Origin: Loktanella sp. 3ANDIMAR09
GTDB taxonomy: Bacteria; Pseudomonadota; Alphaproteobacteria; Rhodobacterales; Rhodobacteraceae
Direction of reading: 5' to 3'
Assembly (NCBI RefSeq): GCF_001420005.1
Contig: NZ_LJAK01000003.1
Coordinates: 310,001 to 374,000 of the forward strand
Length of the DNA stretch: 64,000 nucleotides
Shown here: piece after piece, positions 25,201-27,995 of the stretch
Layout of the letters: the number at the start of each line of letters is the position of its first letter
How positions within the stretch are numbered: the stretch's first letter is position 1
Made by a program: the position numbers and the translations under genes
The notes under the pieces: model-generated
What the model saw: only the letters and a program-made list of their open reading frames with translations
Database searches by the model: none
Told to the model about the DNA's origin: nothing

Positions 25201-25248
25201 GTGGGGGCGCTGCCCCCACGCCCCTGGGATATTTCTAACCAGAAGAAG
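25201..25248 (+). repeat. Extragenic hairpin plus subtype B repeat
   Basis: GTGGGGGC-GCT-GCCCCCAC hairpin (25201-25219) followed by CCCCTGGGATATTTCTAACC then AGAAGAAG (25221-25248). The stop codon of the minus-strand udgX gene (25235-25237) and its last four codons lie inside the subtype B block, so the repeat supplies the end of that protein. Confidence 0.8.
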
Positions 25249-26665
25249 TCAGGGCCGCGAGGTGGTTTGCAGCTGCGCGCAGGTCCTGTGCAAAGGTTGC
25301 TTGTGCCGTCACACTTTCATGGTCCGGTAGGCGGAGCAGGTAGGATGGGTGGACGGTGACAAAAACCGGCGTGCCCTCCGGGGTCACCTCGATCTGTCCG
25401 CGTCGTTTCAGCAGGCCGCCGCCGTCGCCTGTCAGGCTGGCGAGCGCGGTCGCACCCAGTGCGAGGATGAGTTTCGGCTTGATCAATGCGCGTTCCGTGT
25501 CGAGCCAGAATTTGCAGTGCTGCACCTCTGCACCGTTGGGGTTCTGATGGATGCGGCGCTTGGCACCTTGTTTGAATTTGAAGTGTTTGACCGCGTTGGT
25601 CACGAAGGCCGCGTCGCGGTCTATGCCTGATTCGGCGGCGATCCGGTCAAAGAGCTGACCTGCCGGGCCGACGAAGGGCTTGCCTATGCTGTCCTCGGCG
25701 TCGCCGGGCTGTTCACCGACGATCATCAATGCAGCGTCGCGCGGGCCGGTGCCGGGCACAACCTGGGTTGCGGGGCCATGCAGCGGGCAGCGCGTGCAGG
25801 TCTGAAGGCCCGCCTCCAGCAGGTTCCAGGATGCGGGCTGCGGTGTTTCGTTCAGTTGTTCGCGGATGCGGGCGACGCGGGCGGGGGCGAGGGTCGGCGC
25901 CGCATCGGCCATTTCGCGTACGCGGGCTTCGGCATTGGCGATCATGTCGGGGATGTGCTGCGCCTCTGGCATGTTTTTCCAGTATTTGCGCGGCATTTCG
26001 GAGGTCATGGCTTTGACCTTCAACCGGGCGGGGTTGAAGATATTCTTGAAATAGGTGCCCCACAGTTCCTCGGCCGCGTCATCGGGCAGGTCGGGTTTTT
26101 CCTGGCCCGGATGGAAGGTGAGTTTGCCGTCCTTAAAGTTGGCGGTGACGTCGGGGGTCACGATCATCCAGTCCATGTCGGCAAAACGGCGGGCAAAGAA
26201 GGGCGCGTTGGGTTCGAGCGTATGGTGTGTGGGTTCGAACCATGCGGCAAAGCTGCGGCGCGGACCGCCCGTGCGCAGGTCGCGAAACCGGACAAAGGCG
26301 CGCATCTTGTGTTTGCAGCGGTGTACGGCCTTTTCCATCTGGCGAAGCTTGGCAAGCTCTGCGTCGGCGCGGTCGGTCATCAGCCCCTTGTCGAGGCGTA
26401 GCCGCCAGAGCATGGCGTAGAGCCGGGCAAAGCGTTGCGGATCAGTGTGCCAGACAACCCATTTTGCCATTTCGACGAAGTCGGCAGGCACCTTGACGGT
26501 GCCGCGCACGGTCGGCGCGGGCAGGTCGGTTGCAAAGAGTTCAGCCTCGGCCCCGGCGAAATCCCATAGGATATCCTGCGGGGGGATGCGGGCGGCCAGG
26601 CAGGCGCGCGCCGCGTCGCGCCAGGCGTCCCAGGTGCCGATGCGGGGCAATGAAATCGTCAGCAT
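25235..26665 (-). CDS. UdgX-type uracil-DNA glycosylase with N-terminal DUF4130 domain
   Basis: A 476-residue fusion. Residues 1-260 are DUF4130 (TIGR03915-like: VVWHTDPQRFARLYAMLWRL, RKYWKNMPEAQHIPDMI). Residues about 275-470 are a family 4-related UDG: CTRCPL for the Fe-S cluster, GEQPGDAEDSIGKPFVGPAGQLF as motif A, and HPSYLLRLPD as motif B. KRRIH at 369-373 matches the UdgX-specific loop, whose His forms a covalent bond with the deoxyribose after uracil excision (known for UdgX of Mycobacterium smegmatis). It follows the radical SAM gene with a 1-nt overlap. DUF4130's role is unknown. Confidence 0.93.
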   Translation of the reverse strand: MLTISLPRIGTWDAWRDAARACLAARIPPQDILWDFAGAEAELFATDLPAPTVRGTVKVPADFVEMAKWVVWHTDPQRFARLYAMLWRLRLDKGLMTDRADAELAKLRQMEKAVHRCKHKMRAFVRFRDLRTGGPRRSFAAWFEPTHHTLEPNAPFFARRFADMDWMIVTPDVTANFKDGKLTFHPGQEKPDLPDDAAEELWGTYFKNIFNPARLKVKAMTSEMPRKYWKNMPEAQHIPDMIANAEARVREMADAAPTLAPARVARIREQLNETPQPASWNLLEAGLQTCTRCPLHGPATQVVPGTGPRDAALMIVGEQPGDAEDSIGKPFVGPAGQLFDRIAAESGIDRDAAFVTNAVKHFKFKQGAKRRIHQNPNGAEVQHCKFWLDTERALIKPKLILALGATALASLTGDGGGLLKRRGQIEVTPEGTPVFVTVHPSYLLRLPDHESVTAQATFAQDLRAAANHLAALTSSG

Positions 26666-27897
26666 CAGAAGAGTGACAGCTGTTCCGGCGGCGGCGCAAA
26701 ACGTGCACGCAGCGTGTCACTGTCGGTCAATCCGCCCGGTGTCCAATCGGCGCAGGTGATAAAGGCCTGCGCCTTTTTCAGTGACGCACCGAGGCGCAGA
26801 AGGTCATCATAGCGCAAGCTCCGGTGACGGCGCGTGGTCAGGATGCGGTGCACGGTTTTGGTGCCGAAACCGGGGACGCGCAGCAGCATTTCGCGCGGGG
26901 CCGTGTTCACATCCAGCGGGAAATGGTCGCGGTTGCGCAGGGCCCAGGCCAGTTTGGGGTCAACTTCGAGGTCCAGGTTGCCGTCCTTGGCTGTCGAGGT
27001 GATCTCGTTGACGTCAAAACCGTAGAACCGCATGAGCCAGTCTGCCTGATAGAGGCGGTGTTCGCGCATCAGGGGCGGTTTGATCAGGGGCAGTTTGGCC
27101 GTGGCGTCGGGGATCGGCGAAAAGGCCGAATAATAGACGCGCCGCAGCTTGTAGTCTGAATAAAGGCCAGTCGAGCGCGTCAGGATCGTCGAATCCGTGG
27201 CTCCGTCCGCGCCCACGATCATCTGCGTGCTTTGCCCGGCGGGGGCGAATTTCGGCGCGCGTTTGCCGGTGTGGCTGCGGTCCTTGGCGGCGTCGCGGTG
27301 CTGGCGCACCCCGCCCATCGCCGCGCGAATCGTCACCGGGTTCTTTTCGGGGGCAAAGGCCTGCACGGCGCGGTCGGTCGGCAATTCGACGTTGATCGAC
27401 AGGCGGTCGGCGTGGCGGCCCGCCTCCTCGATCAGTTTGGGGTCGGCGTCGGGAATGGTTTTCAGGTGGATATAGCCGCGAAAGTTTTCGACCTCGCGCA
27501 GGCGTTGTGCGATGCGGACCATCTCGCCCATGGTGTCGTCGGGGTTGCGCACCACGCCGGACGACAAAAACAGACCCTCGATATAGTTGCGACGGTAGAA
27601 TTCGAGGGTAAGCTGAACCACCTCGTCCACCGAGAACCGCGCGCGCGGGACGTTGGACGACACGCGGTTCACGCAATAGGCGCAATCGTAGATGCAAAAG
27701 TTGGTCATCAGGATTTTCAGCAGGCTGATGCAGCGGCCGTCCGGGGCGTAGGCGTGACAGATGCCGGACCCTTCGGTGCTGCCCAGCCCCTTGCCGTCGC
27801 GGCTGTCGCGGCGGGTCGTGCCCGACGATGCACAAGACGCGTCATAACGCGCCGCGTCAGAGAGAATCGCCAGTTTCTGATCAAGTGTCATAGCCAT
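26665..27897 (-). CDS. Putative DNA modification/repair radical SAM protein with helix-hairpin-helix
   Basis: A 410-residue radical SAM enzyme of the TIGR03916 type. CIYDCAYC is the CxxxCxxC cluster site that makes the 5'-deoxyadenosyl radical; upstream Cys residues (YDASCASSG, GICHAYAPDGRC) are family features. Near the C-terminus, LLRVPGFGTKTVHRILTTRRH is a helix-hairpin-helix of DNA-binding type. The substrate is unknown. It is coupled to the DUF4130-UdgX gene, and that pairing recurs in bacteria, which suggests a joint act on DNA. ATG 27897 (MAMTLDQK) has AGGA upstream; ATG 27891 is possible. Confidence 0.9.
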   Translation of the reverse strand: MAMTLDQKLAILSDAARYDASCASSGTTRRDSRDGKGLGSTEGSGICHAYAPDGRCISLLKILMTNFCIYDCAYCVNRVSSNVPRARFSVDEVVQLTLEFYRRNYIEGLFLSSGVVRNPDDTMGEMVRIAQRLREVENFRGYIHLKTIPDADPKLIEEAGRHADRLSINVELPTDRAVQAFAPEKNPVTIRAAMGGVRQHRDAAKDRSHTGKRAPKFAPAGQSTQMIVGADGATDSTILTRSTGLYSDYKLRRVYYSAFSPIPDATAKLPLIKPPLMREHRLYQADWLMRFYGFDVNEITSTAKDGNLDLEVDPKLAWALRNRDHFPLDVNTAPREMLLRVPGFGTKTVHRILTTRRHRSLRYDDLLRLGASLKKAQAFITCADWTPGGLTDSDTLRARFAPPPEQLSLF

Positions 27898-27995
27898 GTG
27901 TTCCTGATACGTTCTCATCACTGGTCGGGCAAGGGGCATTCCCTGCGACTGATCGCGCCGCTTGCAACTGTGGGGCGGGGTGGGGATGATGCGGC

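Follow-up and report, generated by a model that had tools for sequence, protein, structure and literature searches.

The subject of this analysis is a two-gene operon in a 64,000 nt stretch of the Loktanella sp. 3ANDIMAR09 genome (contig NZ_LJAK01000003.1, positions 310,001 to 374,000; the whole stretch is called the window), in which the gene for a radical S-adenosylmethionine (rSAM) protein precedes one that encodes a fusion of a DUF4130 domain with a uracil-DNA glycosylase (UDG) of the UdgX type (Table 1). A sequence-only reading of the window had proposed this layout, with both genes on the minus strand and a 1 nt overlap, and it was borne out, as the rSAM stop codon and the start codon of the fusion share base 26665 (TGATG). 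The ATG at 27897 was taken as the sensible start of the rSAM gene; the mechanical open reading frame (ORF) opens at 27939. With 583 bits against TIGR03916 (cut-off 343.5), the rSAM protein belongs to that family, and we take COG4277 to be the rSAM family as well. The fusion matched TIGR03915 over residues 10–235 and TIGR03914 over residues 238–464, so that the pairing of a TIGR03916 protein with an adjacent TIGR03915 (DUF4130) protein is present here, and Pfam concurred with NCBIfam (Radical_SAM, DUF4130 and UDG). The operon is thus a member of an already catalogued, still uncharacterised kind, and the pairing itself is not new: the names of the three NCBIfam models state the rSAM–UDG linkage, and a 2013 paper describes DUF4130 as an enzyme with a predicted link to mutagenesis that occurs in association with SplB-like rSAM proteins and uracil DNA glycosylases (PMC3765255).

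Table 1. Genes, domains and motifs of the operon, with positions in the window
Feature	Position	Strand	Evidence
rSAM gene, 410 aa (TIGR03916 rSAM_link_UDG / COG4277)	26665..27897	-	Profile score and AlphaFold2 (AF2) model
DUF4130-UdgX fusion gene, 476 aa	25235..26665	-	Start codon overlaps rSAM stop by 1 nt
LexA (SOS) box GAACGTATCAGGAAC	27900..27914	-	Exact GAACN7GAAC, ends 2 nt before rSAM ATG
C22, C47, C56 of rSAM, further invariant cysteines	27730..27834	-	Present in 122, 123 and 123 of 123
CxxxCxxC radical SAM cluster motif (C68, C72, C75)	27673..27696	-	Invariant in 123/123 sequences
Helix-hairpin-helix (HhH)-like motif, rSAM residues 328–357	26827..26916	-	HHH_3 E 0.0055, below cut-off; conserved R-V-P-G-x-G
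QLSLF, rSAM residues 406–410, predicted DnaN sliding-clamp-binding motif	26668..26682	-	Conservation and consensus QL[S/D]LF
DUF4130 domain (TIGR03915), residues 1–235	25961..26665	-	206 bits (cut-off 112); obligate rSAM partner
UdgX uracil-DNA glycosylase domain, residues 238–464	25274..25954	-	TIGR03914, 304 bits (cut-off 190); similarity to MsmUdgX
Motif A GEQPG, residues 317–321	25703..25717	-	E318 in 102/102, Q319 in 100/102 UdgX-bearing orthologues
R-loop KRRIH, residues 369–373, crosslinking His373	25547..25561	-	R371 and H373 in 102/102
Motif B HPSYLLR, residues 439–445	25331..25351	-	H in 101/102, R in 101/102
Fe-S ligand cysteines C290, C293, C384 (span)	25514..25798	-	Each in 91/102

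The rSAM protein ends in a motif of the type by which bacterial proteins bind the DnaN sliding clamp. The common form of this motif is QL[S/D]LF, more generally QxxLF, and QLSLF, as found here at the extreme C-terminus in an exposed tail, is the motif by which PolC binds DnaN (PMC12309361). A clamp-type motif was present within the last 12 residues of 120 of the 122 rSAM orthologues, whereas among the 2237 other ORFs from these loci, which formed the background, only 9 had one, and shuffled tails gave 1.4 on average; after clustering at 70% identity, 23 of 25 clusters carried it. The two failures were L086, with QGSLF, and L176, whose tail is longer and has QLSFF 29 residues before its end. 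The motif recurs in Bacteroidota, Fusobacteriota and Gemmatimonadota, the copies of Parabacteroides, Fusobacterium and Gemmatirosa having QLILPF, QLKLF and QLSLW, respectively, that of Acinetobacter QLSLGF, and those on unassigned gut contigs QLSLF and QLSMF, with QLSFF as a further variant among gut copies. The segment preceding QLSLF is variable in sequence and was modelled with low confidence, as expected of a flexible linker, and the tail is probably flexible. We infer from this conservation that the rSAM protein could bind DnaN; no paper linking the rSAM family with the sliding clamp was found, within an incomplete coverage of the literature.

The box upstream of the rSAM gene is the reverse of the GTTCN7GTTC LexA motif of Alphaproteobacteria (PMC8565304, PMC12700426) and is of the type appropriate to this lineage, since recA (GAACACAATAAGAAC) and lexA (GAACAGAGGTAGAAC) of the same genome bear such boxes just upstream. 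With three matches where 1.5 are expected, the count of such boxes within the window is by itself uninformative, and it is conservation that carries weight: a box of the alphaproteobacterial type, in either orientation, was located near the rSAM start in 104 of 120 rSAM loci, whereas Markov shuffling gave an expectation of ∼1.5 (∼0.9 for the GAAC and ∼0.6 for the GTTC orientation). In eight of the loci without it, none of them alphaproteobacterial, the beta/gamma LexA type CTGTN8ACAG took its place, a type found in none of the loci with the alphaproteobacterial box, and boxes with one mismatch were seen by eye in four further loci. Likewise, a Caballeronia plasmid copy had a CTGTN8ACAG-type box (CTGTATAAACATACAG), and two boxes of the Gram-positive type, GAACN4GTTC, were present at a gut-derived copy. 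Thus, the operator type follows the lineage, which argues for a real and maintained SOS control. A search of the Loktanella genome with GAACRTAN4GAAC matched the operon only, because the spacer is different in the boxes of recA and lexA. LexA would probably repress the window operon too, as reported for related operons: LexA control of a COG1573-COG4277 operon was predicted in Bacteroidetes in 2021, in a paper that refers to SOS regulation previously reported in Verrucomicrobia and Alphaproteobacteria (PMC8565304, citing Erill 2016 and da Rocha 2008). Our result on SOS control is an extension of this published work and not its discovery. The sequence-only reading had described the families as catalogued but of no established activity, which is right, but it missed the SOS link already in the literature (PMC8565304), as well as the LexA box itself, the C-terminal QLSLF and three extra cysteines of the rSAM protein.

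Two observations made in passing concern this type of control. The Xanthomonas loci L086 and L173 have a common palindrome, GTCTCAN6TGAGAC, upstream of the rSAM gene, possibly the operator of another repressor. In the Loktanella genome itself, an open frame of 154 aa (L184, C3:219145-219501), which includes a LexA-type peptidase domain, lies behind a GAACN7GAAC box and is perhaps a UmuD-like SOS gene.

Co-occurrence of the parts of the system was counted in 249 genomes of the phylum, with statistics that ignore kinship; the families are also present in Caulobacter vibrioides. The rSAM protein was above cut-off in 39 genomes, all of which had DUF4130, and of the 41 genomes in which DUF4130 was found, 39 had rSAM, a near-perfect association (P = 1.4e-43, not corrected for phylogeny). 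UdgX was fused in 29 of the 39 rSAM genomes and absent in the other 10, which include G099 and G183 from the same family as the window, and it occurred in 9 of the 210 rSAM-negative genomes, in one of these possibly through a contig end; stand-alone UdgX without rSAM was present in G139, G154 and G213. Two loci look like natural deletions that kept UdgX together with its LexA box. In L045, where the rSAM gene and most of DUF4130 are gone, a remnant of DUF4130 (its last 35 residues) and an intact UdgX come within a few bases after the box, and in L093 the box stands ahead of DUF4130-UdgX without rSAM. Both the counts and these deletions suggest that rSAM-DUF4130 is the core and that UdgX is an accessory which can be retained by selection on its own, both under SOS control.

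These data bear directly on the possibility that rSAM and UdgX work one after the other on a shared substrate, the rSAM protein for instance making a uracil-like base which UdgX then excises and traps. The sequence-only reading, too, had the radical enzyme and the glycosylase share a substrate, and the tight operon, the gene fusion and the enrichment of UdgX with rSAM (P = 1e-21) would agree with it. However, the persistence of rSAM-DUF4130 without UdgX in a quarter of its genomes, even among members of the same family, and of UdgX behind a kept LexA box after loss of rSAM, or of rSAM and most of DUF4130, speaks against a substrate that the two necessarily share, and we consider this view unlikely.

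DUF4130, for its part, is conserved across phyla at only ∼20% identity, with L43, V114, R126, F127, P145, R160, W202, R214 and E234 kept. A profile search of the Protein Data Bank (PDB) yielded no convincing match (best E 0.99), and a fold search with the model of the whole fusion returned matches filled by the UDG half. A conserved third gene between rSAM and DUF4130 was also considered and rejected, since the inserts differ among loci. In L060 and L159 (by Pfam) and in L162 and L163 (by sequence likeness) the gene inserted between rSAM and DUF4130-UdgX encodes a hemerythrin domain, a HigB-like toxin gene with a gene for a helix-turn-helix (HTH) protein occupies the same place inside the SOS operon in L136 (L136:5245-5868), and the insert between rSAM and DUF4130 in L079/L080 encodes a beta-helix protein and a second protein.

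The radical SAM cluster that the sequence-only reading assigned to the rSAM protein was confirmed by the invariance of CxxxCxxC, and the AF2 model (predicted local distance difference test score, pLDDT, 83.6) is a radical SAM partial barrel with HydE, lipoyl synthase and biotin synthase as nearest folds. The three further invariant cysteines suggest an auxiliary Fe-S cluster, for which lipoyl synthase and MiaB-type enzymes offer a comparison; C22, C47 and C56 may hold it. The HhH, which had also been claimed for this protein, was weak by Pfam, although most of R-V-P-G-x-G is invariant. Identity between the window protein and the gut or Acinetobacter copies is ∼50%. The protein had no SplB family match at E 0.01, and SplB was absent from the 50 best fold matches.

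The active site of the UdgX half is intact. Structural alignment with UdgX of Mycobacterium smegmatis (MsmUdgX, 6AJO) gave 44% identity, Z 29.7 and a root-mean-square deviation of 1.6 over 198 residues, and phmmer gave E 1.6e-46. Motif A, the R-loop with its His and a motif B of the form HPSxLLR are all present on the MsmUdgX fold, and KRRIH with His373 stands as the sequence-only reading had it. As E318, R371 and H373 are invariant, the trapping chemistry is probably retained.

Variation in the UdgX half was also noticed. The Fe-S cysteines are lost jointly in several lineages, with all the crosslinking residues kept, as seen in L061, L065, L071, L072, L075, L095, L099, L101, L104 and L151, and the His of NAVKH, the probable fourth Fe-S ligand, is R or Q in L095, L099, L101 and L104; UDGs that crosslink but hold no Fe-S cluster may exist. 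The UdgX halves of L110 and L112 (Paracoccus) have GEAPG, the family-4 motif A, and retain the R-loop (KRRIH/KRRLH), being natural counterparts of the Q53A mutant.

Taken together, the lineage-type SOS operator, the clamp tail, the invariant crosslinking His and the co-occurrence of rSAM with DUF4130 support a DNA-lesion-processing unit, as the sequence-only reading had it, and we favour, at a probability of roughly 60%, an SOS-induced, clamp-recruited lesion-processing enzyme made up of rSAM and DUF4130, with UdgX as an accessory trap for apurinic/apyrimidinic (AP) sites. In this scheme LexA would repress the operon from the box at the rSAM start, and after derepression the rSAM protein would be recruited to DNA by its QLSLF tail on the DnaN clamp and by its HhH-like motif. 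Together with its obligate partner DUF4130, it would act on a lesion met in replication or in post-replicative repair. The damaged base might then be directly repaired or converted by radical chemistry at the CxxxCxxC cluster, possibly with a second cluster at C22/C47/C56; such direct repair or conversion is the likeliest chemistry for rSAM-DUF4130, but is held tentatively, with the odds rather against it. UdgX, which is joined to DUF4130 in some three quarters of the proteobacterial cases, would be a separable accessory. Like MsmUdgX, and because its active site is fully conserved, it should remove uracil and then remain covalently linked via His373, thereby capping the AP site and preventing its cleavage in exposed or replicating DNA.

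Several points weigh against this scheme. Neither rSAM nor DUF4130 has a demonstrated activity, and sequence comparison matched neither of them to a known structure. The case for clamp binding rests on a short linear motif, the N-terminal segment that bears C22 and the residues before C47 was modelled with low confidence, and the co-occurrence counts lack phylogenetic correction. Finally, L084, L086, L173 and L175 (4 of 120 loci) had no recognisable LexA box even when one mismatch was allowed.

Other functions fared worse than the shared substrate. It has been proposed that RecA or proteases resolve UdgX adducts (PMC10359453), and as such adducts need resolution, rSAM-DUF4130 could be the release step of a suicide glycosylase, removing or reversing the UdgX-DNA covalent adduct at which the fusion would place both activities. 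We regard this as very improbable, as many rSAM-DUF4130 genomes have no fused UdgX and the stand-alone UdgX genomes mentioned above have no rSAM. Just as improbable is a system installing a modified base in normal DNA, a role which the sequence-only reading had also entertained and to which the NCBI name of the rSAM protein (putative DNA modification/repair protein) might lend itself. Nothing was found that favours routine base modification: the operator is of a damage-inducible type instead of providing constitutive expression, no restriction or methyltransferase partner is among the neighbours identified (YchF and a LacI-type regulator), which were surveyed in the window only, and the operon families were seen in only one IMG/VR contig and in 10 of the 50,697 records of phages, most of these 10 being faecal scaffolds that lack annotation. 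The last figures also led us to reject phage origin, or a phage-borne system, as the main context, and the annotated Acinetobacter ‘phage’ contig is probably bacterial because it carries glyQ/glyS. Least probable of all is an anti-phage module against uracil-containing phage DNA, in spite of the trapping of uracil in DNA by UdgX, the patchy occurrence and the many plasmid copies (158 records), since neither protein matched a PADLOC model at E 0.01, by which a known defence system was rejected, LexA control and the clamp motif point to genome maintenance, and 142 of the 158 plasmid copies are on non-mobilizable replicons.

Among the mobile elements, two further observations were made. On the Phaeobacter inhibens plasmid pPGA1_262 (L196) the operon lies a few genes from a pair encoding a cisplatin-damage-response DNA ligase and an exonuclease, and a topoisomerase IB gene is similarly close. 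A short DUF4130 protein, gp50, is encoded at the end of the induced genome of Bacteroides phage BKO1-TP1 (L179), with no rSAM gene in the stretch seen.

The operon is common and probably damage-inducible, and UdgX is a widely used laboratory tool. A clamp-binding tail on the rSAM protein would place the system at replicating DNA and, together with the separability of the two halves, makes its function testable, turning a ‘putative DNA repair protein’ into the object of specific and cheap tests.

Compared with the linked families TIGR03916/03915/03914 (the COG4277-COG1573 SOS operon), the window copy shows no difference, having the same proteins, order, fusion and SOS operator, and the clamp motif and the separability are family-wide observations that are new as far as the literature could be checked. 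With M. smegmatis UdgX (6AJO, 6IOD) the window UdgX shares motifs A and B, the KRRIH R-loop, the crosslinking His and the Fe-S cysteines, but MsmUdgX is a single-domain protein whereas here UdgX is fused to DUF4130 and encoded behind rSAM. HMCES/YedK (SRAP) proteins capture AP sites covalently and so protect DNA; the capture by UdgX would be similar, although fold and chemistry are unrelated and UdgX additionally removes the base. SRAP is linked to SOS (PMC3765255). Spore photoproduct lyase (SplB), the radical SAM enzyme of DNA repair, is SOS-linked in several species (PMC8565304) and shares with the rSAM protein the enzyme class and the action on damaged DNA that is proposed here, but the rSAM protein adds extra cysteines, the HhH-like motif and the clamp tail and has its best folds in HydE, LipA and BioB. 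We give somewhat less than an even chance to the proposal that rSAM-DUF4130 represents a second kind of radical SAM enzyme for DNA repair, not a photolyase, which would be widespread, induced by SOS, tethered to the clamp and equipped with an auxiliary Fe-S cluster; it would direct new radical chemistry at a lesion that blocks replication, UdgX being a bolt-on trap for AP sites at the fork. If rSAM-DUF4130 does repair DNA by radical chemistry, it would join spore photoproduct lyase, with a far wider distribution.

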